This document shows, piece by piece, positions 11,161 to 35,781 of a DNA stretch of 64,000 nt. Every line of letters begins with the position of its first letter. The stretch's first letter is position 1. The notes beneath the pieces are model-generated. The model had not been told where the DNA came from. It made no database searches and was given only the letters and a program-made list of their open reading frames with translations. Location of the stretch: NCBI GenBank assembly GCA_027488815.1, contig JAIYAX010000005.1:62001-126000 (forward strand). Reading direction: 5' to 3'. The position numbers and the translations under genes are program-made. This stretch comes from Cytophagaceae bacterium. GTDB taxonomy: Bacteria; Bacteroidota; Bacteroidia; Cytophagales; JAIYAX01.

Positions 11161-14100
11161 ATGTGTTTTTTTGACCAAATCTGCAAAAGATATAAGCTCT
11201 TGGTTTTGCAGGGGCTATTTAGCTTACTAATTACCCCTCTGTACGCCCAGCAATCGGTGGGCATAGGCACAAACACCCCAAACCCAAATGCAGTCCTTCA
11301 ACTGGTAAGCCCGGGGCAAAACCAGGGATTTTTACTTCCTAAGTTAACGACAGGGCAAATAACCTCACTGGGTTTAACACTCGTAGCTGCAGACAAGGGC
11401 TTGCAGGTATATGACTCGCTTTTGCAACAAATCAGGTATTGGGATGGAAGTAGCTGGCTTACATTGAGTACATCTGCAGCTTCAGGAACTGTTTCCTCAG
11501 TAGGTTTAAGCTTGCCTGCCATTTTCAACGTCTCCGGCTCACCGGTGACGACTTCGGGTGTACTATCAGCTACGTTTCAAAATCAGGCACAAAACACGGT
11601 TTTTGCAGGGCCTACAGTAGGTTCAGCTTCTCCAACATTTAGGACATTGGTGGCAGGTGATATCCCTTCTTTACCTGCAACGATCATAACTTCAGGAACA
11701 CTCCCAATAGCAAGAGGTGGAACTAATGGAACAGCTGCTCCATCTTCCGGAGCTGTGGCCTATGGCACAGGTACTGCTTATGCATTTACATCGGCTGGTA
11801 TCAACGGTCAATTACTACAATCCACAGGCGCAGGGGCACCCATTTGGATAAATCCACCCGCTACCCTCACGGCAAGCAATGGCCTCACCAGAACTGTGAA
11901 TGACATAGCTCTGGGCGGGACGCTTAGCGGAGCAACCAACATAAACAGGGCAGGATTTAACCTGGTGGTTAGTGGGGCTGGTGATTTCAGTGTGCGTCCG
12001 GGAGGAGCCGGCTCCGAACGATTGTTTGTAAATGGGACCACCGGAAACGTGGGCATTGGTACCGTCACACCACTTTCGCCACTTCAAGTGGGGACCAAAC
12101 TCAGCATCTTCACTGACCCGAGCACTTCTCAAGAAGTTATTGCCAACAACGTTTACAATGACGGAACCGACTTTAGGTATGTCACCACCAACTCGTCCAG
12201 CGCCCTTACACTTGGTAGCGAGCGTGTAGGACTCTTTACATTCCCCATTGGCACAGCAGGAAACATCCTTGCAGGCACTCCAAGCATGCGCCTCAATCTT
12301 ACCACTCTTGGACTAGGTATTCAGGTAGATAACCCGCAGGAAATTTTACATATCAACGGTCCAGCTTTACTGAACCCTATAACTGCTCCGGGCACTACAA
12401 CAGGCAGGCTATACAATGTGGGTGGTAACTTGTTTTGGAACGGTACCAATATTTCAGCTGGTAGCAGTGGCGCAAATCTCACATTGAGCAACCTGACTAA
12501 CCCCACGGCTTTCAATCAAGACTTGCGCTTTGACAACAGTGCTGACCGTTTCATTGGCTTTCCGGCTGGCTTTAGCCCTTTACAAGGCCGCAGTTTGGCT
12601 ATTTCTGGAGAAGCTACCTCAGGAGCTGTTTTGGCGGGTGGAAATGTCAGCATATCCGGTGGATTTTCCAGCACAGGGGTTGGCGGTAGTGCAGGTATAA
12701 CTGGGGGTTCATCAAGCACGTTTGCAGGAGGTAATGTGGGCATTTCCGCAGGAGATGGTGGTGCACAGGGAGGAAGTACATTTATACGGGGAGGCAATTC
12801 ATCCGGTGGCACGGGTGGAAATATTTTTATGACACCTGGTGATGGTTTTTCGACCAACGGTAACTTATACTTGGCCTCAGAGTTTGGCCTTGGCCTGGTT
12901 GGGCGAGTCGGAATAGGTTTGAATGGCACCACTGAATCCCCTACTGCCTTATTGGACATCACATCCAATACCAGCGCTAGGGCTGCCCTTCGATTACGCA
13001 ATGGAGTACCACCTACTACACCCAATCAAGGCGATATCTACGCCGATGGCAACAGCGTCTTTTATCGAAATTCAACCAGTTGGGTCGATTTGGGTGGTTC
13101 TTCTAGTGGTTGGAGTTTAACAGGGAATGCAGGAACGACCGCAACAGATTTTATCGGTACTACCGATCTACAAGATTTCAGGATTAGAACCAATAACCTG
13201 GAGCGCATGATTTTGGCTGCCAACGGAAACATCGGCATTGGGGCAACCGTACCTCGAAGCCGCTTACAAATTGGCAGCCGTATGGGATTGGTCGCTGCTT
13301 CCGTGGATGATTTCAATGCACTCACCCGCAATATCTATATCGATAACGCTGATGATCCTTTCTATCTGAACAACGGCCCTGCCAATGTCTTGTTCATGGA
13401 TGACAACTTTATTGAGTTGGCCATTCATCCTACAGGAGTTGCCAATGCTGCCGTTTCAAGCCCAACGAGAAATCTGGTTGTTGGACTGAATGGAATAGGA
13501 TTAAACACCAACAATCCGATTTATCCGGCGCACTTAGTAGCTGGATCAATAGGCTATGGCTTTGTGCATGAAGGGGGAGGAGTAAGAGTAGGTACCTATG
13601 TCAATGCTGCAGGGGGCTGGCTGGGTACACAATCCAATCATGATTTGCGACTTTTCACAAATGATAATACGGGAAATTTGATCATTCAGGCCTCCACGGG
13701 TAATGTGGGTATCGGCACCACCGCACCACCGGAGCCCCTTTCGGTAATTGGGCAAATTGGCTGGGGTACCCCAAATGCCGGAACCAACAGGCTGCAATCC
13801 GATCAGGGTGGATCAATAGAATTGGGTGGCAATAACTTTACGGCTAACCCGCTCGTAGGTGCAGGCCCATACATCGATTTTCATTTCGGTAACGGGATTG
13901 CCGAAGATTTTAACTTTAGGCTCATTAATTCCGGCAACCGAATTCTAGATTTTGTTGATAATACAAATGTCAGCATGTTAAGAATAAACAATGGAAACAT
14001 AGGCCTTGGTGTATTAGCACCAGTTTCCAGACTTGATATTGCCGGCGATGTTCATTTAGCTGACATAGTAAACCCACCAGCACCCACTACTAATAAACTC

Positions 14101-16491: not shown

Positions 16492-16506
16492 TGCTTTAGA
16501 GGGCTT

Positions 16507-16531
16507 TACTCTGGGTTCCTGATCCAGAGTA
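16507..16531. other. Intergenic hairpin after giant gene 1
   Basis: TACTCTGG-GTTCCTGAT-CCAGAGTA perfect 8-bp stem; no clear T-tract. Confidence 0.5.
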
Positions 16532-16676
16532 TGTATAATTGAATAACTTTGATCCCCCTGATCACGTACAAGGTACAGTCCTTTTTGTTTCTAATTATTG
16601 GATGTTCCGACTTACTTTTTTGAGTTGGGAGTATAAATGAACAACTGAAATTTCAAGTTACTTTAACCAACCCATT

Positions 16677-19600
16677 ATGAAGCTACTACTACGTACTTCA
16701 CTAGTCTTTATTCCTGTTTTGCTGAACGTTTGTGCGGTGTATGCCCAGCAATCTGTTGGCATAGGCACAAATACTCCAAACCCCAGAGCGGTACTACAGT
16801 TGGTCAGCCCTGGGCAAAATCAAGGCTTTTTACTTCCCAAACTGACCACAGCCCAGATCACCAGCCTTGGAAGTTCGCTGGGGGCAGGTGATATAGGCTT
16901 ACAGGTTTATGACTCACTTCTTCAACAAATAAGGTATTGGAATGGCACTGCCTGGCTTACCGTAAGCACTGCAACATCAATGGGTACAGTCACTAGTGTG
17001 GGGCTATCCTTGCCTTCCATTTTCACGGTTTCAGGTTCGCCAGTTACAACTTCGGGTACGCTTACAGGTACGCTGGTAGCTCAGGGTCAAAACACTGTTT
17101 TTGCAGGACCTACAACGGGTACATCTACTCCAACGTTTAGAGCATTAGTGGCAGGAGACATTCCTTCTTTACCCGCAACAATTATTACTTCAGGGACACT
17201 CCCAATTGCAATAGGTGGAACAAACGGAACAGCTGCACCAACGGCAGGAGCCCTCGCATACGGAACAGGATCCGCCTACGCATTTACCGCTGCAGGCACA
17301 ACAGGTCAGGTTTTGCAAAGCAATGGAGTAGGCGCTCCCACCTGGGCATCTCCGAATAGCTTTGGATGGGGGTTGACAGGAAATGCAGGTATTAATCCCG
17401 CTACGAATTTCTTAGGCACAACAGATGCACAGCCCTTGCGCTTTGCCACCGGTGTTGGAGGAGTAGAAAGAATGAGAATTACCCCAACAGGGAACATAGG
17501 AATTGGAACTACAACACCTGCTACAGAGCTTCATGTGACTGGAAATGCAGCCGTGATAAGAATTGAAGGGGTAGATCATGCTTATCTGGAGTACTTTAAC
17601 GATGGCCCAGCAACCCGAACCGGGTGGATCGGTTATGGAGATCCTGCAGCAACAGCATTAAACCTAAGTAATGAAATTGGGGATGTCGCTTTTTCCTCTG
17701 GAGTAGGTACAGCCTTTGAGCGAATGCGGATTACCAATACCGGCGAAGTAGGTATTGGAACAATCAGTCCTACTGAAAGACTACAGGTCGCTGGGAATAT
17801 TCGTTTCTCCGGCGCACTCATGCCAAACAACCTTGCAGGTACTTCAGGCCAAATACTTACCTCACAGGGAACTGGTGTTGCACCTGTTTGGAGTAATCTT
17901 TCCGCATTAGCTTGGAGCTTGACAGGCAATGCTGGCACCAATCCATTGACAAATTATATCGGAACATCAGATGCCCAGCCCTTAAGAATTAACACCAATG
18001 GTGCTGAGCGTATGCGTGTTTCTGCTGCGGGTGTAGTGGGGATAAACAACACTAATCCGGTTGCCGGTAGTTTTAACCCCGCTATGCGCCTGGATGTTAG
18101 TGGTGCAATTCGAACCGCAAGGGATGGTGTAAATGGGGAAGAAGGGGGTGAATTTGCACTCGGAGAACCAAGCCTGGCCCCAGGAGGAGGTACAGGCAAC
18201 TGGATCATGGATGCTTATTTTGCAGGTGGAGTAAACAAAGTGAGATTGTTCAATACACGTACAGGTAACAATCATTTGAATATCACAGATAACGGAACTC
18301 CTTTTGTGGGTATTGGAAATTTTGGATTTGCAGAGGCTGCACTTGCCACTTTAGACGTAAAAGGTAATGTGAGAATAGTAGATGGCACACAGGCTGCGGG
18401 TCGTGTGCTTACCTCAGATGCCGGAGGGTATGCCACCTGGCAAACACTCCCTGCTGTAAATTCCTGGTCATTATCAGGTAATACTGGCACCGTTGATGGC
18501 ACCAATTTTCTCGGTACAACAGACAATATCGCCTTCACCATCCGCACCAACAATATCCGATCAGCAAGGCTGGAACCTGCGCTTAACGGAAACAGCTTTT
18601 TTGGCTTTGAAGCCGGGCTAAACGTTCCAAATGCCTCCACTTCAACGGCCATGGGATATCAGGCTTTGCGAGCAGCTACAGTTGGGTCTCAAAATACAGC
18701 TATAGGATACAGAGCGATGAACGTTACCAATAATGCGATCCAAAACGTGGCGGTGGGGATGAATGCCATGTTATTGAACACTGCCGGTAGCCAAAACACC
18801 GCCTTGGGTTATGGGGCAATGAGCGCCAATACTGATGGATTAAGGAACGTGGCTGTTGGAATGAGTGCACTTAACGCAAATACTACAGGCGATGACAACG
18901 TATCAGTAGGTTATCAAAGTTTGTTAAGTAATTCGTTAGGAAACTTCAACGTAGGCATTGGTTCTCAGGCTTTGCTAAATACCACAGCTGACAACAACGT
19001 AGCAATAGGTATAGGAGCAGGAGCATTCAATACTTCCGGTACAAATAATACCTTTCTAGGTCGCTCGGCCAATGCCACAGTAAATAACCTGACCAATGCG
19101 ACAGCAGTTGGTGCGAATGCTACCGTTTCCCAATCAAACACTATCATATTAGGTAACAATGCCAATGTGGGTATCGGAACCTCCACACCAGCCCGTCGAC
19201 TACATGTTCAGCAGACTGGAAGCTCAGGAGGGTTGGTGCTGGAAGCTCCATCTAACTCCGCAGCACTTCTTGACCTTTTAACCTTGGGTAACGGTTCGTC
19301 TCCTGTAAATAATCCAGCTACCAGAGGCTGGCAATGGATCGCCTATGGGAATACATTTGGCTTATTGGCTTTGCAGAATGATATGGCATTGTTTAGCTAC
19401 AATGGAACAGGAGGCACCAATGTAATGCACTTTGATGCTGCTGGTAATGTGGGACTAGGAACAACCGCACCTTTTGAACGTCTGCATGTGGGGGCCAATA
19501 TTTTCTTACAGAACGATCTAAACCTGGCGGAGGATAATGATCATACTATTAAGGTAGCAAACAGGACAACGCCTTCTGCCAACGGGTCAAACTTAGTCCT

Positions 19601-22541
19601 GAATGCATCCAATGCCGGATCTGGCGGGCTCGGAGTAAGTGGGGGTTCAATTACTTTACAAGCAGGCGATGCCTGGAACAATGGAGGAGCAGGATCAGGA
19701 GGAGCAGTCAATATCATAAGTGGGGGAAATTTCAATACAAGCGACAATCCCGGCTTTATCACGATGAGTACCAGAACAGGCACGGTGACGACCGAACGCA
19801 TGCGAATTCTGGCAAGCGGAAATGTGGGGATTGGTACAACTGCCCCCACAGCACAACTACATACCACAGGAGGAGTCAGATTTCAGGCTTTCACCGGTCC
19901 CGGAGTATTAACGGTTGATGCTTCAGGAAATGTAAGCTCGGTTTCTGGTGGTACAGTTGTTGGTTCGGGACAGATCAACAGGGTTGCTTATTGGAACACC
20001 GCATCTACCTTAAGTTCATCAACACAGTTTTATTGGGACAATGCGAACGAATTTTTGGGTGTTGGATGGTCTGCTCCTGAGCATCCACTTCATCTTCACA
20101 GAGCAGCAGGGGCTGACGTACTTTCAAAATATACAAATACCAACACATTTGTAGGCGCAGGAAACGGCTTTGAAGTAGGTATTTTGGCGGCAGGCGATGC
20201 CATTTTTAGAAACATGGAACCTACCAGCATGCAGTTTTCAACGAGTAATATCGAAAGGATGCGGATCTCTGCTGCTGGAAATGTGGGCATTGGAACAACA
20301 ACTCCAGATGCATCTTCATTAGTAGACGTTGTCTCAACACTTGCCAACACGATTATTTCAACAAACAATCATATTGGGGCTAGTAATAAAACCGGTTTTA
20401 TTACTACAGTCAGTGGAACTGGAACTGGTGCAAAGACTGGACTTCAATCTATTGTAAGCGGTACAGTAGGCTCTGCTGCTCAAGTCCTTGGATTTAGCAA
20501 TAACATAAATCCACAAGGAACCGGTACAACATTTGGGATTAATAATACTATTGCAAATTTGGGCACCGGAATTCGATATGGTGTATTCAATAATATATCC
20601 TCCTCAGCAACAAATACATCCATTATTTATGGAACCTTTAACAGCTTAGGAAGTGGAGGCCCAGGTGGAGTTATTGGGGACTACAGCACCATTAGCTCTG
20701 TTGCCACTACCACCGGGGAGCTTTATGGATCCAGATACGACATTACGCCAAATGGTACCGGTTTGGTAATGGGAAGCAGAACCACCCTATTTGCAGGAAC
20801 AGGCACCGGTCAGCGATATGGGTATTACAGCTCCATTGGAACAGCAGCAGGAAATGCATCGGCTATTTATGGACTTCATTCATTTATCAATCCAGCAGGT
20901 ACAGGTACCGTTTATAGCACTTACAATGTAGTACAAGCTGCCGGTACTGGACCTAGGTATGGCAATTATGCTCTTGTAGAGGCTGGTGCAAGCAATACAT
21001 CACCTATTTTTGGTCTTAATAATGATGTTATACCAAATGGATCAGGAAATGCTTTTGGGGCCTCAAATATTATCTCTTCGTTTGGAACTGGTGAGAGGTA
21101 CGGTACATATAACAGTGTATCAGCATCAAATTTGAATACATCAGCTATTTATGGTTTGCACTCATTAACTAATCATTCGGGCTCGGGTACGGTTTATGGA
21201 TCGTACATTGATGCCAATAAGGCAGCTGCTCAGCCTGGAACGGTATATGGTCAGTATGTGATATCTGACAATGATGGAACAGGGGACTCCTACCTAATGT
21301 TTGCTAATTCCATTGGAGCCACAACAGGAATTGAATATGGGTTATATGTTATCGGTGAAGACAGGAACTATTTTAGTAACAACGTGGGTATTGGCACAAC
21401 CATCCCAAATGCCCCGCTTCAGTTCTCCAATGCTTTGGTGAATAGAAAAGTTGTACTTTGGGAAGGGGCAAACAATGACCACCAATACTATGGATTTGGT
21501 GTAAATGGGGCTACTTTAAGGTATCAGGTGGACGCTACTGCTGCTAACCATGTTTTTTATGCAGGTACATCAGCAACTACCAGTGAAGAACTTATGCGGA
21601 TCACCGGCACAGGAAGGGTGGGTATTGGTACTAACGCTCCCAATAGCTTGATTGATGTTGTTGGAACTGCTACTGATCCTCAAACCATTGTCAATATGAC
21701 TTCGGCAAATACCTGGGGAACGGCACTAAACATTGGCAATTCTACCTCATCAACTGCTTACCAATTGGTAACAGCAGGTAGTGCACATCCAAGCCTTCCC
21801 TCAGGTTCATTTGCGTTAAGTTCATTAAGTTCAGGCAACTTAATCACCGTTGATGGAAGCACAGGTGACATGGCCATTGGCGCTTTGTCAGTGACAACAA
21901 ATAAGATTGGAATAGGTATCGCCCCAACAGGATCATCAAAAGTATACGTAAGAAATACAGATAACAGTTTCTCTGACGGAATGTGGTTAGCCAATAACAG
22001 AACTTCAGCCGGTACTGTATGGGGACTTTACAACACCACATCTAACTCCTCAACGGGCACTTTGTATGGTATTTTTACCAGTGTATCAGGAGGTACCGCT
22101 GCAAACAGATGGTCATTTTATGGCAATGATAAAGCTTTTATTACTGCGGGTACTTGGGGAACTTCTGATCAGAATTTGAAAGAGAACATTTCCGAGATAA
22201 AAAATGCGATCTCAATTGTTCAGCAAATCCCTTCTTATTCTTACTCATATAAAAAGGATGATTTATATAAAAGCTTCAATTTCCCAGAAGGAATTCAATA
22301 CGGATTTATGGCCCAAGATCTTGAAAAGGTGTTGCCAACCTATGTAAATGATAGTGAGCATTTTGTCCCAGAGGATCTTGAAAAGAAGAGAAAAGGGCTT
22401 ATTAGTGAACCGAGAAGCGTTCGTATCAAATCAGTAAACTACCAAGGCATTATCCCCATCCTCACCCAGGCCATCAAAGAGCAACAGGAACAAATTGAAC
22501 TCCTGAGGGAGCAAGTAGAAGAGCTCTTGAAAAAGCCCTAA
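16677..22541 (+). CDS. Giant repetitive secreted protein 2 (1954 aa); NVGIGT-module protein with C-terminal S74-type chaperone domain and coiled coil
   Basis: Signal peptide, same N-terminal block, many NVGIGT modules; C-terminus TWGTSDQNLKENISEIKNAISIVQQIPSYSYSYK...QYGFMAQDLEKVLPTYV...YQGIIPILTQAIKEQQEQIELLREQVEELLKKP. Confidence 0.93.
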   Translation: MKLLLRTSLVFIPVLLNVCAVYAQQSVGIGTNTPNPRAVLQLVSPGQNQGFLLPKLTTAQITSLGSSLGAGDIGLQVYDSLLQQIRYWNGTAWLTVSTATSMGTVTSVGLSLPSIFTVSGSPVTTSGTLTGTLVAQGQNTVFAGPTTGTSTPTFRALVAGDIPSLPATIITSGTLPIAIGGTNGTAAPTAGALAYGTGSAYAFTAAGTTGQVLQSNGVGAPTWASPNSFGWGLTGNAGINPATNFLGTTDAQPLRFATGVGGVERMRITPTGNIGIGTTTPATELHVTGNAAVIRIEGVDHAYLEYFNDGPATRTGWIGYGDPAATALNLSNEIGDVAFSSGVGTAFERMRITNTGEVGIGTISPTERLQVAGNIRFSGALMPNNLAGTSGQILTSQGTGVAPVWSNLSALAWSLTGNAGTNPLTNYIGTSDAQPLRINTNGAERMRVSAAGVVGINNTNPVAGSFNPAMRLDVSGAIRTARDGVNGEEGGEFALGEPSLAPGGGTGNWIMDAYFAGGVNKVRLFNTRTGNNHLNITDNGTPFVGIGNFGFAEAALATLDVKGNVRIVDGTQAAGRVLTSDAGGYATWQTLPAVNSWSLSGNTGTVDGTNFLGTTDNIAFTIRTNNIRSARLEPALNGNSFFGFEAGLNVPNASTSTAMGYQALRAATVGSQNTAIGYRAMNVTNNAIQNVAVGMNAMLLNTAGSQNTALGYGAMSANTDGLRNVAVGMSALNANTTGDDNVSVGYQSLLSNSLGNFNVGIGSQALLNTTADNNVAIGIGAGAFNTSGTNNTFLGRSANATVNNLTNATAVGANATVSQSNTIILGNNANVGIGTSTPARRLHVQQTGSSGGLVLEAPSNSAALLDLLTLGNGSSPVNNPATRGWQWIAYGNTFGLLALQNDMALFSYNGTGGTNVMHFDAAGNVGLGTTAPFERLHVGANIFLQNDLNLAEDNDHTIKVANRTTPSANGSNLVLNASNAGSGGLGVSGGSITLQAGDAWNNGGAGSGGAVNIISGGNFNTSDNPGFITMSTRTGTVTTERMRILASGNVGIGTTAPTAQLHTTGGVRFQAFTGPGVLTVDASGNVSSVSGGTVVGSGQINRVAYWNTASTLSSSTQFYWDNANEFLGVGWSAPEHPLHLHRAAGADVLSKYTNTNTFVGAGNGFEVGILAAGDAIFRNMEPTSMQFSTSNIERMRISAAGNVGIGTTTPDASSLVDVVSTLANTIISTNNHIGASNKTGFITTVSGTGTGAKTGLQSIVSGTVGSAAQVLGFSNNINPQGTGTTFGINNTIANLGTGIRYGVFNNISSSATNTSIIYGTFNSLGSGGPGGVIGDYSTISSVATTTGELYGSRYDITPNGTGLVMGSRTTLFAGTGTGQRYGYYSSIGTAAGNASAIYGLHSFINPAGTGTVYSTYNVVQAAGTGPRYGNYALVEAGASNTSPIFGLNNDVIPNGSGNAFGASNIISSFGTGERYGTYNSVSASNLNTSAIYGLHSLTNHSGSGTVYGSYIDANKAAAQPGTVYGQYVISDNDGTGDSYLMFANSIGATTGIEYGLYVIGEDRNYFSNNVGIGTTIPNAPLQFSNALVNRKVVLWEGANNDHQYYGFGVNGATLRYQVDATAANHVFYAGTSATTSEELMRITGTGRVGIGTNAPNSLIDVVGTATDPQTIVNMTSANTWGTALNIGNSTSSTAYQLVTAGSAHPSLPSGSFALSSLSSGNLITVDGSTGDMAIGALSVTTNKIGIGIAPTGSSKVYVRNTDNSFSDGMWLANNRTSAGTVWGLYNTTSNSSTGTLYGIFTSVSGGTAANRWSFYGNDKAFITAGTWGTSDQNLKENISEIKNAISIVQQIPSYSYSYKKDDLYKSFNFPEGIQYGFMAQDLEKVLPTYVNDSEHFVPEDLEKKRKGLISEPRSVRIKSVNYQGIIPILTQAIKEQQEQIELLREQVEELLKKP
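16746..16850 (+). repeat. Conserved N-terminal 35-aa block, copy 2
   Basis: QQSVGIGTNTPNPRAVLQLVSPGQNQGFLLPKLTT. Confidence 0.9.
18540..19190 (+). repeat. 'NTAxGYxAMxxNTxGxxN' repeat block in giant 2
   Basis: NGNSFFGFEAGLNVPNASTSTAMGYQALRAATVGSQNTAIGYRAMNVTNNAIQNVAVGMNAMLLNTAGSQNTALGYGAM...; homologous block in giant 3 at 31548-32199. Confidence 0.85.
20391..21366 (+). repeat. Alternating 'GTGxRYGxY / NTSxIYG / PxGTGxxxG' repeat array unique to giant 2
   Basis: Protein periodicity: GTGIRYGVFNNISSSATNTSIIYGTFNSL..., GTGQRYGYYSSIGTAAGNASAIYGLHSFINPAGTGTVYSTYN..., GTGPRYGNYALVEAGASNTSPIFGLNNDVIPNGSGNAFG..., GTGERYGTYNSVSASNLNTSAIYGLHS.... Confidence 0.8.
22164..22538 (+). other. Peptidase S74-like intramolecular chaperone/autoprocessing domain of giant 2
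   Basis: Ser1830-DQNL-Lys1835 (S-x4-K) followed by ENI...MAQDLEKVLP... and a C-terminal coiled coil. Confidence 0.8.
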
Positions 22542-22545
22542 CCCA

Positions 22546-25066: not shown

Positions 25067-25103
25067 CTTTGGTTTTTACATGTAAAATTGAATTAAAAAC
25101 TCA

Positions 25104-25904
25104 TTGGAGGAAACTGTCCTTGATATTGCCAGATTGAATACACACTCGGTTGCCGAAGGTGTTTGGATGATCGATGAGATCATTTCTCAAGAACTGGGGG
25201 CCAATCTGTACCGGCAAGCCATGGAGCTGAAGTCAGGTTGGGTAGATTACCGGCATTTTATGGAGAGGAAATCTGCCTTTCAGAGCTGGGAGGAATTGCC
25301 GCCCGCCTGGCAGCAGGTGCTGTCTGAATTAAGCAGCAATGAGTTTATCGATTTCCTGAGTCAACTTTCTGGAATTGATCATCTGGTATTTGATCCTCAG
25401 TTAATCGGATCAGGAATTCACCGCATGGGTAGGGGAGATTATTTAGCCGTCCACCGAGATTTTACTCATCATCCATCAAAGAAATTGCAGAGACGATTAA
25501 ACCTGATCATTCACTTAAGTCCGGTATGGAAAGAGGATTGGCAAGGTCATACACAATTTTATGATGAAGCTGATCAGCCTCCTTCATTGAATCTTCGTCC
25601 TTCCTTTTGTCAAGCCCTTGTCTTTAAAAACGATGCATTTAAATACCACGGAGTTCCCGACTGTATTGATTGTCCAGAAGGAGTTCACCGGCTTACCTTA
25701 AGCACATTTTACTACGCTCCTGAGCCAGTGAAGACCCGAAAGAAATACACGTATTACCCACCCTTTCAATTTTCAGGGATGAAAATGCGCTCTTTGGCTT
25801 TTGCAGAAAACTTAATGATCACTATTTACAGCTTTGTAACAGCAAAGAACAGGGCTCGGCTAGACAAAATGGTCGGGTCTGTTATGAAAAAGTTGTTTAG
25901 TTAA
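25104..25904 (+). CDS. 2OG-Fe(II) oxygenase (prolyl-4-hydroxylase-like fold), TTG start
   Basis: HRDFTHH (HxD), KYHGVPDCIDCPEGVHRLTLSTFYY (distal H and R of the double-stranded beta helix). Confidence 0.75.
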   Translation: MEETVLDIARLNTHSVAEGVWMIDEIISQELGANLYRQAMELKSGWVDYRHFMERKSAFQSWEELPPAWQQVLSELSSNEFIDFLSQLSGIDHLVFDPQLIGSGIHRMGRGDYLAVHRDFTHHPSKKLQRRLNLIIHLSPVWKEDWQGHTQFYDEADQPPSLNLRPSFCQALVFKNDAFKYHGVPDCIDCPEGVHRLTLSTFYYAPEPVKTRKKYTYYPPFQFSGMKMRSLAFAENLMITIYSFVTAKNRARLDKMVGSVMKKLFS

Positions 25905-26004
25905 AGGAGCTATTTGCCTCAACATTATATGTTTTCCGGTTACACATTTGATTTTAAATTATTAAACATAAGCGTTATTTTTACACGCCTTTGACTAACC
26001 AGCA

Positions 26005-29000
26005 ATGAACAATTTTAGACTACACCTGTCCCTCATAGCTATCACGATCCTGCTTCCCGTCTTCAGCAATGCTCAGCAATCAGTCGGTATCGGTACGAAT
26101 TCGCCCAATCCAAGAGCTGTACTTCAACTGGTAAGCCCAGGTCAGAATCAGGGCTTTCTCTTGCCTAAGCTTACCACTACTGAAATTAATACAATGCCAG
26201 TGATAGCTTCTGATAGAGGATTGATGGTGTATGATAGCTTGACCAATGAGATTAAATATTGGAGCGGCACCTTGTGGATTAGCATGGGTTCAGGAGGGGC
26301 AACTAGCCTAAATTCCTTGTCGGATGTGACACTTACAGCACCTGCAATTGGTAGTTACCTTCGATATAATGGGGTTGATTGGGTCAATTCCTCCACTATT
26401 TTCCCGATAAATGAAACAGTTGCAGCAGCAGGCACGCAGTTTCAATTAAATCAGACAGGTCCTGGGACGACCTTCAGGCTAACCAATTCAAGCCCGCTCT
26501 CAACCGATTTTGTCATGAGTGTAGAGGCATTCGGAGATGCGATTGCTGGCTACTTCGTCAAGAATAATCCGGCTTCCACAAATCAGGCAATTTACTCCCA
26601 TACTCTTGGTACCGGACCGGCATTGGTAAGTTTTGGATTAGGTAACAATTCAACGGCAGCCAGATTTGCAAATACAAGTATTTCTAGTAATCAACCTTCT
26701 GTGATTATCGAAAATGCCGGAACAGGCTTAGGCTTAAACGTAGCCTCAGGTGGAGTTCGTGTAAATCGATTTGGAGGCGGAGGCAACAAAATGATTGTGA
26801 CCAACAACACAGGGGTTTTGGATACTGCAGCACTGCCCACCTCTCAGTGGATCACAAATGGGTCAAATATTTTTTATAACAGCGGGAATGTAGGAATTGG
26901 TACCATCACACCTACCGAGAGGTTACATGTCGTGGGAAATAGTCGAGTAACAGGTATCAGTTATTCAAGGAGCGTTGAAGTATTTGATACGTTAAATCAA
27001 GCTTCTTTTTTCAGGACCAATTCTACTGTACAGGCGCAGAATTATATTGAATTCAGTACGGGCAGATACAATGGAAACAACAATCGTACGGATTCAAGAT
27101 GGCAACTAGGTTTAAGCCAATTAGCTACACCGAGTGACAACGATTTTTTTGGTATAGGCCGAAACAACATTGGGTATGATTTTGTAGTCAACCGTGCTGG
27201 TTTTGTTGGTATTGGCGCAGAAACCCCTACAGAAAGACTAGACGTTGTAGGTAATTTAAAATTCTCAGGAGCCATAATGCCTAACAACCAGCCGGGCTCC
27301 TCCGGTCAGGTATTGACTTCTTCAGGTCCCGGCTTACCTCCAACCTGGACTTCCGCAGGAGGCTCAGGTACCGTTACAAGCGTGGGTCTCACTCTGTCCG
27401 GAATTTTTTCAGTCTCAGGTTCCCCGGTTATTGGCAGTGGTACACTGACTGGCTCTCTTATCAATCAGGCACAAAACACTGTCTTTGCAGGGCCTACATC
27501 AGGATCAAACACACCTAGCTTCAGGGCATTGGTGGCAGGTGATATCCCTTCTTTACCTGCAACGATCATTACTTCAGGAACAATCCCTATAGTAAGAGGT
27601 GGAACCAATGGAACCGCCGCACCAACTGCAGGGGCTGTAGCGTATGGAACTGGCACTGCCTATGCATTCACCGCTGCAGGCTCTTCAGGTCAGGTATTGC
27701 AAAGCAATGGAGCTGGAGCACCAACCTGGGTTAACCCTCCTGCTTCATCAGGATGGTTACTTTCTGGTAACACAGGCACTACACCTGCCACTCAATTTAT
27801 TGGAACGACAGACCTACAGGACTTACGTTTCCGAACAGATAATGCCGAGCGTATGGCTATCACTTCAATTGGAAACGTAGGAATTGGAGTTGTAAATCCT
27901 ACTTCCCGACTTCAAGTTCTAGCATCTGGAGGGCTGAATCCCGATGCAAATGGACTTTATGTAAACAACCCGATTAATTCCCCCGGTGAAGATGCAATAC
28001 TTACAACACGTGTAGCAGGTTCTAGTGCCGGTAACCCTTTTGTATCCTTTGACATCGCAGGAGAGGCCGGTTATTCCTTGGGGATTGACAATGCCGACAC
28101 GAATAAATTTAAACTAAGCGCCACATGGAATAGTCTTGCCGCCAGTCCTTTGATAACTGTTCAGCAAAATGGTTTCACAGGGTTCGGCACCTCCAACCCA
28201 ATAGATCGATTACATGTTGCCGGTAGAGTGCGAATTGTGCAAGGCCAATATGGTTTAATTCATACAGACGGCATTACAGAAATGGGAACCTTTGTAGATG
28301 CATCCGCAGGTTGGTTTGGAACCAACACCAATCACCCCTTGTGGTTTTACACAAATAATCAACCTTTTCCAGGTTTGATGGTCAGCGTTTCAAACAATGT
28401 AGGAATTGGTACCGTCAACCCTACTGAGAGATTGGAAGTTTTAGGCAACATCCGGTTCACTGGGGCACTTATGCCAAACGGACTGGCCGGAAATACTGGT
28501 GAAGTGCTCACCTCTGCTGGGCCGGGCTTGCCACCAACATGGACCGCAGTCGGAGGCTCGGGAACAGTCACTTCAATCGGTACAGGAACAGGACTAACTG
28601 GCGGGCCGATCACAACTACAGGAACCATCTCATTGGCCAATTCCGGAGTTACAATAGGCACTTATGGAACGGCATCAGCAGTGGGAACATTCACGGTAGA
28701 CGCCACAGGTAGGCTAACCTCAGCTTCTTCTACTCCAATAGCTATTAGTGCTGGCCAGATCACTTCGGGAACACTTCCTATAAATAGAGGAGGTACAAAT
28801 TCAACTGTAGCTCCGGTTGATGGAGGACTAGCATACGGTATTGGAGGGGCCTATGCATTTAACGCTGCAGGTACACCCGGCCAAGTTTTGCAAAGCAATG
28901 GTACAGGTGCACCTACGTGGGTTACTTTACCTTCTTTTTTAACAACAAGCTTAAACAATGGAAGTGTATTAGTTGGAAATGCCAGCAATGTTGCTACTCA

Positions 29001-32000
29001 AGTTCCGACTGGTAACTTAACGACTACTACCAGTGGATTATCAGTTACCGGAGGTGCCGGTGCAGTTATAGGAACGGGTGCGACAATTAATATACAAAAT
29101 GCCAACGGTACACAGCCGGGTTTACTCACTGCTGCTGATTGGACAACATTTAACAACAAACAAAATGCTTTTACACCGGCTAACTTATTGATAAGAGGAA
29201 ATTCCGGCGGTACAGCCTTGGTATCATCACAAGTTTTTGATGATGGTGTCAACGTTGGAGTAGGTACTACATCGCCAGCTTACAAAATGCAAGTTTCCGG
29301 CTCTCTTGCAGCAGTTGGATCAGCTCCTGCTCCTATTGTTAATGATGCCGGAACAGGTACAACCAATGTTTGTAACCCACAGACAGCAGGACAAGGATTT
29401 ACAGCAACCCAATCAAGAAATATTACAAGCATCGAGATAGATCTGTTCGGTGGTTTTTCAGTGGGTAATGTCACCCTTGAAATTTACAATGGCCTGACCA
29501 ATACGGGGGTACCAGCGTATTCTCAAGTATTTAATATAGCTGCAGTTCCTGCACAGGGCTTTTTTGCATTTCCATTAAGTACACCTTTCCCAGTAACCAA
29601 CGGAAGCACTTATGCCTTTAAAATAATTCCTTCCGGTTGCTTTTCGTTTTACAATTCAACCTCAAACCCTTATACCGGCGGGGACAGGTTCTTTAACAGT
29701 GTTGTATCAACAGGTTGGGATTTGGATTTCAGGATTAATTACCAAGCCTCAGGAGTGATTGCAAATAGCACTGGCAATGGTGAGTTAAGTTTTAGCGGGG
29801 CTTTGATTTCTAATGGGAATTCAGGCATTTCAGGCCAGGTACTCACCTCTCAGGGTTCAGGCTCAGCACCTATTTGGACCGCAGTCGGTGGCTTGGGAAC
29901 AGTCACTTCAATTGGTACAGGAACAGGACTAACAGGCGGGCCAATCACGACTACTGGTACTATATCTTTGGCCAATTCAGGTGTTACAGCAGGCTCCTAT
30001 GGTACGGCATCAGCAGTAGGAACATTCATAGTTGATGCCACCGGCCGACTGACCTCTGTAGCCAATCAGGCTATAGCCATCAATGCCTCGCAAGTGACTA
30101 CAGGTACTTTTGGCATCACTCAGGGCGGGACCAATAGTACAGCCACACCTATTGCAGGGGCCATCGCTTATGGGACAGGAACTGCTTACTCTTTTACCAC
30201 GGCAGGTACTATGGGACAGCTATTACAAAGCAATGGGGCAGGTGTTCCTACCTGGGTAAATCCCCCAACATTTGCCGGCTGGGGACTGACTGGTAATACA
30301 GGAACAGTTGCAGGTACAAATTTTATTGGTACAACAGATGCTCAGGATTTACGGATACGAACCAATAACATAGAACGCCTGGCAATTACCTCTGCTGGCA
30401 ATGTAGGTATAGGTATCACAAACCCATCAGCCCGATTACAGGTCCTGGCTTCGGGCGGGACAAATCCTGATGCAAACGGAATACTTGTAGCAAACACTAA
30501 TAACTCAGTAGGTCAGGATGCCATTATCACAGCTCGTGTTGCAGGCACAAATGCCGGTGATCCATATATTTCCTTTGACATAGCTGGAGAAGCCGGGTAC
30601 TCTTTAGGTATTGATAATTCTGATAATAACAGTTTTAAACTAGGTGGCTTTTGGAACGGTGTTGACGGAAATACACTCCTCACCATTCAGTCTGGTGGAA
30701 ATATGGGAATTGGTACAACAACTCCAAGCCAAAGACTAGATGTGGCAGGTAATATCCGCTTCTCCGGTGCCTTAATGCCAAACAACATAGCAGGTACAGC
30801 AGGACAAGTTTTGTCCTCCAATGGCGCAGGAGTTGCTCCTACCTGGGCATCTCCAAATAGCTTCGGATGGGGGTTGACTGGAAATGCAGGCATCAATCCC
30901 GCAATCAATTATTTGGGAACCAGTGATGGACAACCTTTAGTAATGAGAACTTCCGGTACAGAACGTATGCGCATACTTTCTGGGGGTAATGTGGGGATTG
31001 GAACTGCAACTCCTGCTTCCACTTTTAGCGTAGTGGGCAGGGGACAATTTGGAGATAATAGTTTGACAATCCCTGATGCGAATGACGATTTATATCTTGA
31101 AAAAAATTCATTTTATACGCAGATTCATTTAACAAACACAGATTTAGCCAATCCGGATATCAGCGGATTTATTTCTCAAAACAGAACAGGTGCAGCAAAT
31201 GGGATGGGCAATACTACACCCGGTTTTAATATATGGACTTCATCGAACCATCCAATACAGTTTGGTACCAATAGTTTAAACCGCATGACCATTTCAAGCG
31301 CCGGGAACATCGGAATTGGAAACGTAGCTCCAACTGAACGCTTGGATGTGACCGGCAATGTTCGTTTTTCAGGAGCATTGATGCCAAACAATATAGCAGG
31401 AACAGCGGGACAAGTTTTGTCCTCCAATGGCGCTGGACTCACTCCAACATGGACCAATCCGAGTTCTTTTGGATGGAGTTTATTAGGAAACGGAGGCACA
31501 GTTGACGGCACAAACTATATCGGAACTTCAGACAACGTTCCTTTTACCATCCGCACCAATAATATCCGATCTGCCAGATTGGAACCTTCCTTGAATGGAA
31601 ACAGCTTTTTTGGTTTTGAAGCAGGTTTGAACGTGCCAAACACTTCCACTTCTACTGCCATGGGGTATCAGGCACTTCGAGCAGCAACAGTAGGTAGTCA
31701 AAATACTGCAATTGGGTATAGGGCGATGAACGTGACGAACAATGCTATACAAAACGTAGCCGTGGGTATGAATGCCTTATTGGTAAATACTACTGGTAGT
31801 CAAAACACAGCGGTTGGGTATGGAGTAATGAGCGCCAATACAGATGGTTTACGCAACGTGGCCATGGGAATGAGTGCTTTGAATGCAAATACTTCAGGCG
31901 ATGACAATGTGGCCATTGGATATCAAAGTTTATTAAGCAATTCCTTAGGGAACTTTAATGTGGGGATTGGTTCTCAAGCCTTGCAAAACACCACTGCAAG

Positions 32001-35000
32001 TAATAACGTAGCGATAGGGGTAGGTGCTGGTGCATTTAATACCTCCGGATCTGACAATACTTTTTTGGGAAATGGTGCCAATGCAACAGTGAATAACCTG
32101 ACCAATGCGACTGCGATTGGTACCAATGCGAGCGTTTCACAATCGAATACTTTGGTTTTAGGCAACAATGCGAGTGTTGGAATAGGTACTTCAACCCCGG
32201 TAAGTCGATTGATGGTGGAAGGTACCACCAACCGAATACAGGCATTGGTGAGCAATAGTACGATTGGTGCCTGGAATGAGATTTCCAACACAAGCACCGG
32301 GGGTCAGGTGTTTTCAATGATTTCTACCGGATCAGCCAATTCCGAAGGAGTTGGTAAATTGATATTTACCCGCAATACAAGCCTTGGTCTTACCGCAGGA
32401 ACCATTATGTCATTGGTACATGCCACTTCTCATGTAGGTATCGGATCAACCACTCCGGCCAGAAGATTACATGTAGTAGACCCTTCCACATTCGGAATGG
32501 CGATTGAAGGTACCAATACCACCGGAACAATTTTGGATCTGTTGACTTTAGGCAATGGGGCCACAGGGGTAAATAACACAGCCACCCGGGGCTGGCAGTA
32601 TTTGGCCTATGGCAATGCATTTGGCACAGCCTCTTTGCAAAATGACTTGACACTGCGCTCGTACAATGGAACAGCAGCAACCGATGTGATGCACTTTGAT
32701 GCATTAGGAAATGTTGGATTAGGCACTACAAGTCCGACAGAGCGTTTAGAAGTAAACGGTCGCATCCAACTGCCCAATCAGGCCATCACTTTGGCTGGAA
32801 ACAAGCTATATGCCAATGGAGGTAACCTTTTCTGGGGTACAACTCAGCTAAACACAGGTGGCAGCCAGTGGATCACAAACGGTGCGAATATCCACTACAG
32901 TTTAGGAAATGTAGGAATTGGAGTCGCTACACCTGCTGAACGACTGGATGTAAATGGTAATATTGTTTTGAGAGAAGGCAACAGAACCTTTTCTGTAGCA
33001 CAGCCACCGACGAATGCCACAGGAGGCAGCTTACAATTAAAAGCAGGAAATGCGGGTGCAGGAGGTTTTGCTATGGATGGTGGCTCTGTCATTATTGAAG
33101 CCGGGCATAAGTTCGATCAATCTTTTGGCACCTCACCAGGTAGTATTGTCATGAGGTCAGGCGGTAATATCGACCCTTCAAACTTTGCTGCTAACCCTAG
33201 CGGTAACTTTGTATGGGAGTCTGGTGGAGCCAGCCAAGCATTTACAGAGCGTATGCGAATGTTGGGCTCTAACGGTTTCCTTGGTATTGGTACCAATGCC
33301 CCCACCGCCCAACTACATACCACTGGCAGTGTGCGCTTTCAGGGTTTAACAGGCCCCGGACTTTTGTCCGTGGATGCAACAGGTAATGTTTCTGTTTCTG
33401 GTTCAGCTGTGGCAGGCTCAGGCCTGATCAACAGATTAACTTACTGGAACACTGGTAGTACAGTTGCAGCTGGTTCTAATTTAGCTTGGGACAATACCAA
33501 CGAGAGACTAGGTATTGGCATTTCTATTCCTGAGGCTCCCTTACATGTACACAGAGGAGCTGGGATAGAGGTGTTGTCAAAATACACCAACACCAACACC
33601 TTCATTGGTGCTGGCAATGGTTTTGAGATGGGTATACTAGCTGCCGGAGATGCGATATTTAGAAATTACGAGAACACCAGCATGCAGTTTCTGACCAATA
33701 ATACAGAGCGTATGCGTATACTTGGTAATGGCAATATAGGCCTTGGTACCGCTGCACCAGTTGAACGGTTAGAAGTAGAAGGCCGCATCCAACTACCTAA
33801 TCAATTAACTACTGCTGCAGGCAATAAATTGTATGCAAGTGGTGGCAATTTGTTCTGGGGTACAACCAATATTTCAAATGGTGTAATTAATTCAGTTCTA
33901 CTTGGCGGAAATACCGTAGCCTCGACCATGAACATCGGCAGCATCAATGCTTTTGCACTTGAGCTACAGGTCAATAGCGTGCGGGGGCTGCGCCTGGAGG
34001 TTGGTACTGTACCTAATTTGATAACTGGCTCGCCTGCTAATACGGTGACTGCCGGTGTGAATGGTGCTACTGTTATGGGCGGTGCCTTGACCACTCAACT
34101 AAACACTGCGACTGATAACTACTCCACAGTGAGTGGGGGTTTACAGAATCGTGCCGGTAATAACTCAGGTACGGTCGCAGATGCAACGGCTGCTACTGTT
34201 GGCGGAGGTTGGCAGAATATAGCAAGTGCCACACAGTCAACTGTTTCAGGTGGTTTCGGCAACAACGCCAGTGGAGATATTTCTACTATAGGTGGTGGAT
34301 TCTCCAATCTTGCATCTGGTGCACGTTCGGCTATCACAGGAGGTGAAAGCAATACCGCATCCGGTGGATTGTCTAGCATTGGGGGTGGTTTGACTAATGT
34401 GGCTAGCGGTGCTCGTAGTGCTATTCCCGGTGGAGAAGGACTTTTGGCCCGGTCCTTTGGAGAAACGGTAGTAGGGTTGTTCAGCAGCGACTATGTTCCT
34501 GTAAATGCAACTGCCTACAATGCCAATGATAGAATCTTTTCCATCGGCAATGGGACTGCTACCGCAAGCCGTAGCAATGCAATGACCGTGCTGAAGAATG
34601 GAAATGTGGGTATAGGATCAACAAATCCTACTAGTTTACTAGGTGTTTATGGGGGAATAGCTCCTACCGCTGCTTTGGATGAAGGTGTATTTATAGACAT
34701 ACAAAATACTCTCGGTGTTGCTAATCATTTGTCAGGAATACGATTCAAAGTTAACTCAATTACCACCAACGAGCGATTCAATGCAGCTCTCTTCTACCGA
34801 ATGAATGCCTCTGTAGCAGGAGAACTAAACTTTGCAATCAAGCCAAACTCGATACCAAATATCAGTGCAAATGACATTAAAATGACTATTACAGAACCGG
34901 GAAATGTGGGTATTGGTACTACTGCACCCAATGCTCCATTGCAGTTTTCAAATGGCTTGGTAAACCGGAAGATTGTACTCTTTGAAGGTGCCAATAACGA

Positions 35001-35781
35001 CCATCAGTATTATGGGTTTGGAGTAACCGCAAGTACGCTTAGATATCAGGTGGACGCAACAGCGGCTAGTCACGTTTTTTATGCTGCTACCTCTACAACT
35101 GCAAGTTCCGAATTGATGCGGATCACAGGAACCGGAAATGTTGGAATAGGTACCGCAACACCTTCCCGGAAATTATCTGTAGTGGGCGATATTGATGCCA
35201 CTGGTGGAGTATACTTTGGCTCAGTTGAATTTTTTGCTGATGGTGGTGCTTCTGAAATCATGACAAATTCTGATATTAGGCCAGAAACAAACAACGTACG
35301 TTCACTTGGAACAAGCACAAGGAGATGGACTACTGTCTTTGCAACCAATGGAAGCATCAATACTTCTGATGCCAGATTGAAAGAGAATATCACTAACCTT
35401 AATCATGGTCTCAAATCCATTTTGGAACTTAGGCCGGTGTCTTACAACTGGATAGATGATACCTTAAAACGTACAAAACTAGGCCTCATAGCGCAGGAAG
35501 CAGAAAAAGTGATTCCTGAAGTAGTGCATAGTCCTAAAAGTGCAGAAGAGTTTTATGGATTGAACTACGCTGATCTGGTTCCGGTGTTGATTAAAACAGC
35601 ACAAGAGCTTCATGCAAAAATAGAAGTGCTTGAAAAGGAAAACACACAATTGAGAAGCCAATTGAGCACAGAAGTATCGGCAATCAAGTTAAAACATGAA
35701 AACGATCTGGTTACGCTCAGAAAACAGTTAGATCATGTCATAAAAATAGTGGGAGAAGAGGCAAGAAACACGGATAAGTAG
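26005..35781 (+). CDS. Giant repetitive secreted protein 3 (3258 aa); NVGIGT modules, YadA-head-like region, S74-type chaperone domain and coiled coil
   Basis: Signal peptide, QQSVGIGTNSPNPRAVLQLVSPGQNQGFLLPKLTT, numerous NVGIGT modules; C-terminus NTSDARLKENITNLNHGLKSILELRPVSYNWIDDTLKRTKLGLIAQEAEKVIPEVV...LVPVLIKTAQELHAKIEVLEKENTQLRSQL. Confidence 0.93.
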   Translation: MNNFRLHLSLIAITILLPVFSNAQQSVGIGTNSPNPRAVLQLVSPGQNQGFLLPKLTTTEINTMPVIASDRGLMVYDSLTNEIKYWSGTLWISMGSGGATSLNSLSDVTLTAPAIGSYLRYNGVDWVNSSTIFPINETVAAAGTQFQLNQTGPGTTFRLTNSSPLSTDFVMSVEAFGDAIAGYFVKNNPASTNQAIYSHTLGTGPALVSFGLGNNSTAARFANTSISSNQPSVIIENAGTGLGLNVASGGVRVNRFGGGGNKMIVTNNTGVLDTAALPTSQWITNGSNIFYNSGNVGIGTITPTERLHVVGNSRVTGISYSRSVEVFDTLNQASFFRTNSTVQAQNYIEFSTGRYNGNNNRTDSRWQLGLSQLATPSDNDFFGIGRNNIGYDFVVNRAGFVGIGAETPTERLDVVGNLKFSGAIMPNNQPGSSGQVLTSSGPGLPPTWTSAGGSGTVTSVGLTLSGIFSVSGSPVIGSGTLTGSLINQAQNTVFAGPTSGSNTPSFRALVAGDIPSLPATIITSGTIPIVRGGTNGTAAPTAGAVAYGTGTAYAFTAAGSSGQVLQSNGAGAPTWVNPPASSGWLLSGNTGTTPATQFIGTTDLQDLRFRTDNAERMAITSIGNVGIGVVNPTSRLQVLASGGLNPDANGLYVNNPINSPGEDAILTTRVAGSSAGNPFVSFDIAGEAGYSLGIDNADTNKFKLSATWNSLAASPLITVQQNGFTGFGTSNPIDRLHVAGRVRIVQGQYGLIHTDGITEMGTFVDASAGWFGTNTNHPLWFYTNNQPFPGLMVSVSNNVGIGTVNPTERLEVLGNIRFTGALMPNGLAGNTGEVLTSAGPGLPPTWTAVGGSGTVTSIGTGTGLTGGPITTTGTISLANSGVTIGTYGTASAVGTFTVDATGRLTSASSTPIAISAGQITSGTLPINRGGTNSTVAPVDGGLAYGIGGAYAFNAAGTPGQVLQSNGTGAPTWVTLPSFLTTSLNNGSVLVGNASNVATQVPTGNLTTTTSGLSVTGGAGAVIGTGATINIQNANGTQPGLLTAADWTTFNNKQNAFTPANLLIRGNSGGTALVSSQVFDDGVNVGVGTTSPAYKMQVSGSLAAVGSAPAPIVNDAGTGTTNVCNPQTAGQGFTATQSRNITSIEIDLFGGFSVGNVTLEIYNGLTNTGVPAYSQVFNIAAVPAQGFFAFPLSTPFPVTNGSTYAFKIIPSGCFSFYNSTSNPYTGGDRFFNSVVSTGWDLDFRINYQASGVIANSTGNGELSFSGALISNGNSGISGQVLTSQGSGSAPIWTAVGGLGTVTSIGTGTGLTGGPITTTGTISLANSGVTAGSYGTASAVGTFIVDATGRLTSVANQAIAINASQVTTGTFGITQGGTNSTATPIAGAIAYGTGTAYSFTTAGTMGQLLQSNGAGVPTWVNPPTFAGWGLTGNTGTVAGTNFIGTTDAQDLRIRTNNIERLAITSAGNVGIGITNPSARLQVLASGGTNPDANGILVANTNNSVGQDAIITARVAGTNAGDPYISFDIAGEAGYSLGIDNSDNNSFKLGGFWNGVDGNTLLTIQSGGNMGIGTTTPSQRLDVAGNIRFSGALMPNNIAGTAGQVLSSNGAGVAPTWASPNSFGWGLTGNAGINPAINYLGTSDGQPLVMRTSGTERMRILSGGNVGIGTATPASTFSVVGRGQFGDNSLTIPDANDDLYLEKNSFYTQIHLTNTDLANPDISGFISQNRTGAANGMGNTTPGFNIWTSSNHPIQFGTNSLNRMTISSAGNIGIGNVAPTERLDVTGNVRFSGALMPNNIAGTAGQVLSSNGAGLTPTWTNPSSFGWSLLGNGGTVDGTNYIGTSDNVPFTIRTNNIRSARLEPSLNGNSFFGFEAGLNVPNTSTSTAMGYQALRAATVGSQNTAIGYRAMNVTNNAIQNVAVGMNALLVNTTGSQNTAVGYGVMSANTDGLRNVAMGMSALNANTSGDDNVAIGYQSLLSNSLGNFNVGIGSQALQNTTASNNVAIGVGAGAFNTSGSDNTFLGNGANATVNNLTNATAIGTNASVSQSNTLVLGNNASVGIGTSTPVSRLMVEGTTNRIQALVSNSTIGAWNEISNTSTGGQVFSMISTGSANSEGVGKLIFTRNTSLGLTAGTIMSLVHATSHVGIGSTTPARRLHVVDPSTFGMAIEGTNTTGTILDLLTLGNGATGVNNTATRGWQYLAYGNAFGTASLQNDLTLRSYNGTAATDVMHFDALGNVGLGTTSPTERLEVNGRIQLPNQAITLAGNKLYANGGNLFWGTTQLNTGGSQWITNGANIHYSLGNVGIGVATPAERLDVNGNIVLREGNRTFSVAQPPTNATGGSLQLKAGNAGAGGFAMDGGSVIIEAGHKFDQSFGTSPGSIVMRSGGNIDPSNFAANPSGNFVWESGGASQAFTERMRMLGSNGFLGIGTNAPTAQLHTTGSVRFQGLTGPGLLSVDATGNVSVSGSAVAGSGLINRLTYWNTGSTVAAGSNLAWDNTNERLGIGISIPEAPLHVHRGAGIEVLSKYTNTNTFIGAGNGFEMGILAAGDAIFRNYENTSMQFLTNNTERMRILGNGNIGLGTAAPVERLEVEGRIQLPNQLTTAAGNKLYASGGNLFWGTTNISNGVINSVLLGGNTVASTMNIGSINAFALELQVNSVRGLRLEVGTVPNLITGSPANTVTAGVNGATVMGGALTTQLNTATDNYSTVSGGLQNRAGNNSGTVADATAATVGGGWQNIASATQSTVSGGFGNNASGDISTIGGGFSNLASGARSAITGGESNTASGGLSSIGGGLTNVASGARSAIPGGEGLLARSFGETVVGLFSSDYVPVNATAYNANDRIFSIGNGTATASRSNAMTVLKNGNVGIGSTNPTSLLGVYGGIAPTAALDEGVFIDIQNTLGVANHLSGIRFKVNSITTNERFNAALFYRMNASVAGELNFAIKPNSIPNISANDIKMTITEPGNVGIGTTAPNAPLQFSNGLVNRKIVLFEGANNDHQYYGFGVTASTLRYQVDATAASHVFYAATSTTASSELMRITGTGNVGIGTATPSRKLSVVGDIDATGGVYFGSVEFFADGGASEIMTNSDIRPETNNVRSLGTSTRRWTTVFATNGSINTSDARLKENITNLNHGLKSILELRPVSYNWIDDTLKRTKLGLIAQEAEKVIPEVVHSPKSAEEFYGLNYADLVPVLIKTAQELHAKIEVLEKENTQLRSQLSTEVSAIKLKHENDLVTLRKQLDHVIKIVGEEARNTDK
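26074..26178 (+). repeat. Conserved N-terminal 35-aa block, copy 3
   Basis: QQSVGIGTNSPNPRAVLQLVSPGQNQGFLLPKLTT. Confidence 0.9.
29340..29750 (+). other. Non-repetitive beta-sandwich-like domain embedded in giant 3
   Basis: NVCNPQTAGQGFTATQSRNITSIEIDLFGGFSVGNVTLEIYNG...YSQVFNIAAVPAQGFFAFPLSTPFPVTNGSTYAFKIIPSGCF...GGDRFFNS...DLDFRINY. Confidence 0.6.
31548..32199 (+). repeat. 'NTAxGYxAMxxNTxGxxN' repeat block in giant 3
   Basis: NGNSFFGFEAGLNVPNTSTSTAMGYQALRAATVGSQNTAIGYRAMNVTNNAIQNVAVGMNALLVNTTGSQNTAVGYGVM...; homologous to 18540-19190. Confidence 0.85.
34046..34490 (+). repeat. YadA-head-like repeat region of giant 3
   Basis: STVSGGLQNRAGNNSGTVADATAATVGGGWQNIASATQSTVSGGFGNNASGDISTIGGGFSNLASGARSAITGGESNTASGGLSSIGGG. 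Confidence 0.75.
35365..35778 (+). other. Peptidase S74-like intramolecular chaperone/autoprocessing domain of giant 3
   Basis: Ser3121-DARL-Lys3126, then ENITNLNHGLKSILELRPVSYNW...LGLIAQEAEKVIPEVV. Confidence 0.85.

Follow-up and report, generated by a model that had tools for sequence, protein, structure and literature searches.

Three very large genes in the chromosome of a Cytophagaceae bacterium encode proteins built from modules of the phage tail-fibre kind, and the question they raise is whether they are left over from a phage or are fibres that the bacterium makes and displays for itself. The window analysed here is a stretch of 64,000 nucleotides, bases 62001-126000 of contig C14, in a genome of 3.37 Mb on 30 contigs. 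The first-pass annotation of this window had described three tandem, co-oriented open reading frames of 1776, 1954 and 3258 aa. An ORF check found the sizes and coordinates to be exact, with an ATG start and a plus-strand position for all three (P1, P2 and P3; Table 1). The tandem arrangement holds for the first two genes, which are separated by a gap of 185 bp, but not for gene 3, which lies 3.4 kb off behind three unrelated genes. These are a convergent pair on the opposite strand (a TPR/mannosyltransferase-like gene and a UbiA prenyltransferase gene) and a 2OG-Fe(II) oxygenase gene. The oxygenase gene (25104-25904) is on the same strand as gene 3 and ends 100 bp upstream of it. The Bacteroidota promoter pattern occurs 4 times in the window against 3.1 by chance and is absent upstream of the fibre genes; a sigma-70 scan was of no information.

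Table 1. Features of the three fibre genes, in window coordinates
Feature	Coordinates	Strand	Basis
P1, 1776-aa NS74-type MAT-like fibre protein	11161-16491	+	8OND_A E=3.7e-10; phrog_9942 tail fiber E=6.5e-31
P1 constant N-terminal domain, 'QQSVGIGTNTPNPxAVLQLVSPGQNQGFLLPKLTT...YW.G..W'	11242-11475	+	alignment A2
P1 shaft: six capping loops, one WSLTGN module, one NRKIVLWEAANNEHQYFGFG module	12049-15519	+	motif scan
P1 C-terminal end domain, 'FKIDHP...HSFVESPDM...SWQVTG', ~150 aa	15985-16488	+	no Pfam or NCBIfam family
P2, 1954-aa S74-type MAT-like fibre protein	16677-22541	+	PF13884 E=2.6e-13; phrog_9942 E=1.3e-34
P2 constant N-terminal domain	16743-16973	+	alignment
P2 shaft: seven capping loops, three WSLTGN modules, YadA-head-like repeats (18642-18893), NRKVVLWEGANNDHQYYGFG module	17367-21650	+	motif scan
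P2 S74 domain, motif SDQNLK, then 64-aa coiled-coil-like tail	22164-22346	+	PF13884 E=2.6e-13
P3, 3258-aa S74-type MAT-like fibre protein	26005-35781	+	PF13884 E=2.3e-16; matches to 8OND, 8OJN, 8OML, UspA1 3PR7
P3 constant N-terminal domain	26068-26295	+	alignment
P3 shaft: twelve capping loops, five WSLTGN modules, two YadA-head-like tracts, NRKIVLFEGANNDHQYYGFG module	26890-35175	+	motif scan
P3 YadA/UspA1-head-like repeats, residues 2711-2810	34135-34434	+	phmmer to UspA1 head 3PR7, whole-sequence E=3.9e-10, with a large low-complexity bias
P3 S74 domain, motif SDARLK, then 84-aa coiled-coil-like tail	35365-35529	+	PF13884 E=2.3e-16

The shafts of the three proteins are mosaics of shared modules, and the NVGIGT, WSLTGN and HQYYGFG types that had been read from the sequence are present in all of them. 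Capping loops of the VGIGTxxPxxxL class number 6 in P1, 7 in P2 and 12 in P3, far over the shuffle means of 0.08, 0.05 and 0.13. The W-L-GN...GTTD modules number 1, 3 and 5 in the same order, and the motif NRK(I/V)VL(F/W)E.ANN(D/E)HQY(Y/F)GFG is found in one copy per protein. A capping-loop profile run over the whole genome retrieved the three window genes and five other ORFs, of 1042, 768 and 613 aa (all with S74), 392 aa and 346 aa. The 392-aa ORF is cut by a contig end (G000:C14:165190-165882) and may be part of a further fibre gene that runs on beyond it. The mosaic is old: in the stretches that the paralogues have in common, synonymous divergence is close to saturation or beyond it (pS 0.64-0.83). 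This divergence rules out recent module shuffling among the three genes, and likewise an assembly artefact.

A fibre system of this plan is already known. Bdellovibrio bacteriovorus has mosaic adhesive trimer (MAT) fibres, among them Bd3182, Bd2133, Bd1334 and Bd2439, which have been described as the prey-recognition kit of this predator (Caulton 2024, PMC10769870). The MAT superfamily is a precedent that the first-pass annotation had missed. P1 matches the Bd2133 fibre 8OND_A at E=3.7e-10, and P3 matches 8OND at 2.9e-9, 8OJN at 7.5e-5 and 8OML at 5.7e-4, all of them values that repetitive shafts can inflate. The alignments of P1 and P3 to 8OJN and 8OND fall on the capping loops. Bd3182 has two such loops of 14 residues, R656-H669 and F752-H765 (PMC10769870), and we infer that 8OJN, 8ONB and 8ONC are Bd3182, because three crystal forms of a construct of that size are reported in the same paper. 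Since RVGVGTTAPTSALH and FFGINTAAPAYNIH in the 8OJN chain fit these two loops, NVGIGTxxPxxxLHV reads, on sequence grounds, as the MAT capping loop, bounding beta-helical segments.

The likeness to MAT fibres covers the capping-loop shaft, the presence of S74 members (SDxxxK) beside non-S74 members, and the swapped ends, and it may extend to the signal peptide and the constant N-terminal domain. However, P1-P3 reach 3258 aa as against about 1000 aa, their host is a Cytophagales bacterium, and the P1 end domain corresponds to no described MAT tip and to no PDB sequence. P1-P3 depart from the known MAT architecture in size, in host group, in the P1 end domain and in the N-terminal domain, the last of unproven relation to that of MAT. 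Trimeric autotransporter heads (YadA, UspA1) are also resembled, through the YadA-head-like repeats of P2 and P3, but P1-P3 have no Pfam match to the YadA beta-barrel anchor of these type Vc proteins, and an S74 end is found instead.

The N-terminal part is common to the three proteins. Each starts with a signal-peptide-like stretch ending ...A-QQSVGIGTN, judged by eye, which agrees with the signal peptide annotated earlier. In MAT the N-terminal domain is conserved, beta-rich and about 130 aa long; the constant domain of P1-P3 likewise follows the signal peptide, and homology between the two is putative. An AlphaFold2 monomer of the domain was of low confidence (pLDDT 64.9). The domain was found in 94 of 399 Bacteroidota genomes (24% of the sample), and in 40 regions outside the order it comes next after the signal peptide in most ORFs. 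Across Bacteroidota it is joined to S74, to the P1-type end, to T9SS-tag-like ends and to more than 10 other unrelated kinds of C-terminus. Such a constant base with exchanged C-terminal ends is the MAT plan, a diversified end set against an end fixed for presentation.

The comparative genomics that had been suggested for this locus uncovered related proteins in many Bacteroidota genomes and similar arrays in two of them, G011 and G020. At least 8 co-oriented related fibre ORFs, one of 3859 aa, extend over about 33 kb in G011 (L053-L054), and G020 carries a gene pair of the S74 and P1 types. The G011 array includes one more fibre ORF without S74, with a different kind of C-terminus. An end of another kind, 'YKIYGRG..NDIVVLPLNA...DYIEVFAQRYTG', is shared by seven Bacteroidota proteins that have this N-terminal domain (L279, L282, L289, L294, L295, L297 and L306); it is C1q/TNF-like by eye, and two of the seven gave no convincing Pfam match.

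At the C-terminal end, the three proteins cease to be of one kind, as they had originally been treated. The S74 domains attributed to the fibre set are present in P2 and P3 by Pfam scan, but P1 lacks S74 and has a separate end domain. Of 66 Cytophagales S74 proteins, 62 retain S1, D2 and K6 of the SD...K motif. The tails after S74 in this order fall into two kinds, one coiled-coil-like and the other with a T9SS sorting domain at its end. The sorting domain (PF18962/TIGR04183) has no match in P1-P3 and is found at 103 other places in the same genome. Among Cytophagales S74 proteins, with N-terminus classes drawn by simple patterns, TIGR04183 is matched by 0 of the 31 that have a VGIGT- or NYQG-type N-terminus (P2 and P3 included) versus 12 of the 30 that do not. 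For an earlier count by hand, 0/30 versus 15/32, a Fisher test that ignores kinship gave p = 8e-6. The contrast is clean in Cytophagales only. Phylum-wide, 3 of 38 ORFs with the N-terminal domain end T9SS-like, L287 among them with a Pfam match to S74, and these exceptions rule out exclusion of the T9SS tag by the N-terminal domain as a strict rule.

The T9SS-tagged S74 proteins of Bacteroidota have the same S74 and share some capping-loop modules with P1-P3, but carry a Por_Secre_tail after S74, which P1-P3 do not. Three are encoded in this genome (L002 in C20, L051 in C18 and L052 in C1), all full-length S74 proteins with the T9SS sorting domain after S74, and this domain order is also found in other Cytophagales. 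Because the sorting domain is placed after S74, self-cleavage at S74 would take off the secretion tag along with the chaperone. No description of S74 combined with T9SS was found in the literature searched.

The P1 end domain is widespread. It was found in 5 of 41 genomes of the order, the four relatives being 55-69% identical to P1, in 13 of 200 Bacteroidota genomes, and at no fewer than 585 loci in GTDB genomes of several phyla. Bacteroidota, Acidobacteria, Zixibacteria, Chloroflexota and Armatimonadetes are represented among the 80 matches listed, which are biased to close relatives. The proteins that carry it usually have a signal-peptide-like start. Its HSFVESPD motif lies 101-263 residues from the protein end, mostly 130-160, and the domain is C-terminal wherever read. 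It is combined with S74 in none of 83 proteins, of which 12 have a VGIGT-type and 52 a 'NYQG'-type N-terminus. Phage proteins ending in this domain are the tail fibre of Prochlorococcus phage P-SSM2 and the minor tail protein gp19 of Arthrobacter phage Mufasa8. Within Cytophagales, its pairwise identity is 51-63% versus a mean of 36% for the S74 core, in an S74 set that includes paralogues.

A sequence profile of the P1 end domain gave nothing significant against PDB and Pfam, and the AlphaFold2 monomer, from an alignment of 5 sequences, was of low confidence (pLDDT 55.7). Foldseek of this model against PDB returned non-significant matches only, at the top the cyanophage Pam1 tailspike 7EEA and an R2-pyocin fibre. 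Against viral models there were 15 matches at E<=0.001, with Mufasa8 gp19 first; these mainly repeat the sequence relationship, because the query TM-scores are at most 0.40 and the rmsd is large. We tentatively raise the reading, itself rather doubtful, that the domain could be a second intramolecular trimerisation or processing domain replacing S74 and not a ligand-binding tip, because it takes the position of S74, never occurs together with it, is C-terminal in phage fibres and is unusually conserved for a receptor-binding tip.

With phage proteins sharing this end, a phage source for the whole locus has to be weighed, either as a prophage tail-fibre cassette that is decaying or has been domesticated, or as the fibres of a tail-derived particle (pyocin- or eCIS-like). 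All three proteins match PHROG tail-fibre families, which show the same NHQYYGFG and NVGIGT modules; S74-dependent phage tail fibres and tailspikes (K1F endosialidase, T5 pb1) have the same C-terminal S74 chaperone with SD..LK; and some eCIS operons include an S74 gene (PMC8213781). However, phage tail fibres have no need of a signal peptide such as stands at the start of each of P1-P3. The coiled-coil-like tails after S74 in P2 and P3 are a further difference from the S74-dependent phage fibres. All three ORFs are unbroken, and their synonymous sites have diverged almost to saturation. The phage match concerns only the module that follows the N-terminal domain, in one phage, whereas the N-terminal domain itself is in 24% of the sampled Bacteroidota genomes. 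The neighbourhood is that of housekeeping genes: the flanking ORFs scanned, a part of those in the window, encode MurF, peptide deformylase, CN-hydrolase, aminotransferase, acetyltransferase, beta-lactamase-like protein, aldehyde dehydrogenases, a Na/Ca exchanger, histidine kinases and an FG-GAP protein with a T9SS tail. No phage structural, lysis, integration, tail or capsid gene is among them, as the first-pass annotation had also remarked. We regard a prophage or particle origin as very unlikely.

The preferred reading is that of a chromosomal trimeric fibre or adhesin of the bacterium itself, which had been proposed at the outset. The 8OND, 8OJN and 8OML matches, the SDxxLK motif, the flanks and the Bacteroidota relatives support it, and the structure predictions run were low-confidence monomers only. 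The analysis shows how the proteins are built, what they are homologous to, where they lie in the genome and that the S74 motif is intact; trimerisation, surface display, self-cleavage in this organism and adhesion are what we infer. Taken together, P1-P3 are quite probably secreted, cell-surface, trimeric MAT-like fibres with a constant base, a beta-helical shaft and a variable end, most likely for adhesion or recognition.

In the mechanism that we propose, a Sec signal peptide would export the chains, and the fibre is probably kept on the cell by its constant N-terminal domain. From this base a long beta-helical shaft would project outwards, its segments split by VGIGTxxPxxxL capping loops and YadA-head-like repeats. 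Scaled from the Bd3182 fibre model of about 550 angstrom (PMC10769870), the P3 fibre would, very roughly, be some 200 nm long. In P2 and P3 the C-terminal S74, as an intramolecular chaperone, would trimerise the chains and then cut itself at Ser1830 (P2) or Ser3121 (P3), baring a ligand-binding tip. In P1 the end domain of about 150 aa, which is also present in phage tail fibres, would replace S74 and trimerise the chains from the C-terminus. The fibres would most likely serve to adhere to, or recognise, glycans carried by other cells or by surfaces, because the MAT relative Bd2439 binds GlcNAc and Proteus LPS.

The fibres might instead be structural surface material, such as a sheath, a matrix or a decoy layer (for example a phage shield), and not adhesins for foreign targets. 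A surface coat would suit the extreme length, the low-complexity shafts and the tandem paralogues, and no ligand is identified by sequence. S74 and exchangeable ends, however, are typical of receptor-binding fibres, and solved MAT relatives bind glycans, Bd2439 being the case in point; a purely structural role is in our view unlikely. Glycan recognition is most likely the function of these fibres.

A literature description of these proteins in Bacteroidota, including under the name 'tail fiber domain-containing protein', was not found, which is limited evidence, with subscription papers mostly outside the scope of the search. Bacteria and phages share the P1 end domain, a common module without a name. 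The contrast between the N-terminal domain and the T9SS tag is a concrete handle on how the fibres exit the cell. Additionally, the MAT-like build in very large tandem genes of a Cytophagales genome, along with a base domain in about a quarter of the sampled Bacteroidota genomes, suggests a general Gram-negative way to display phage-like fibres.
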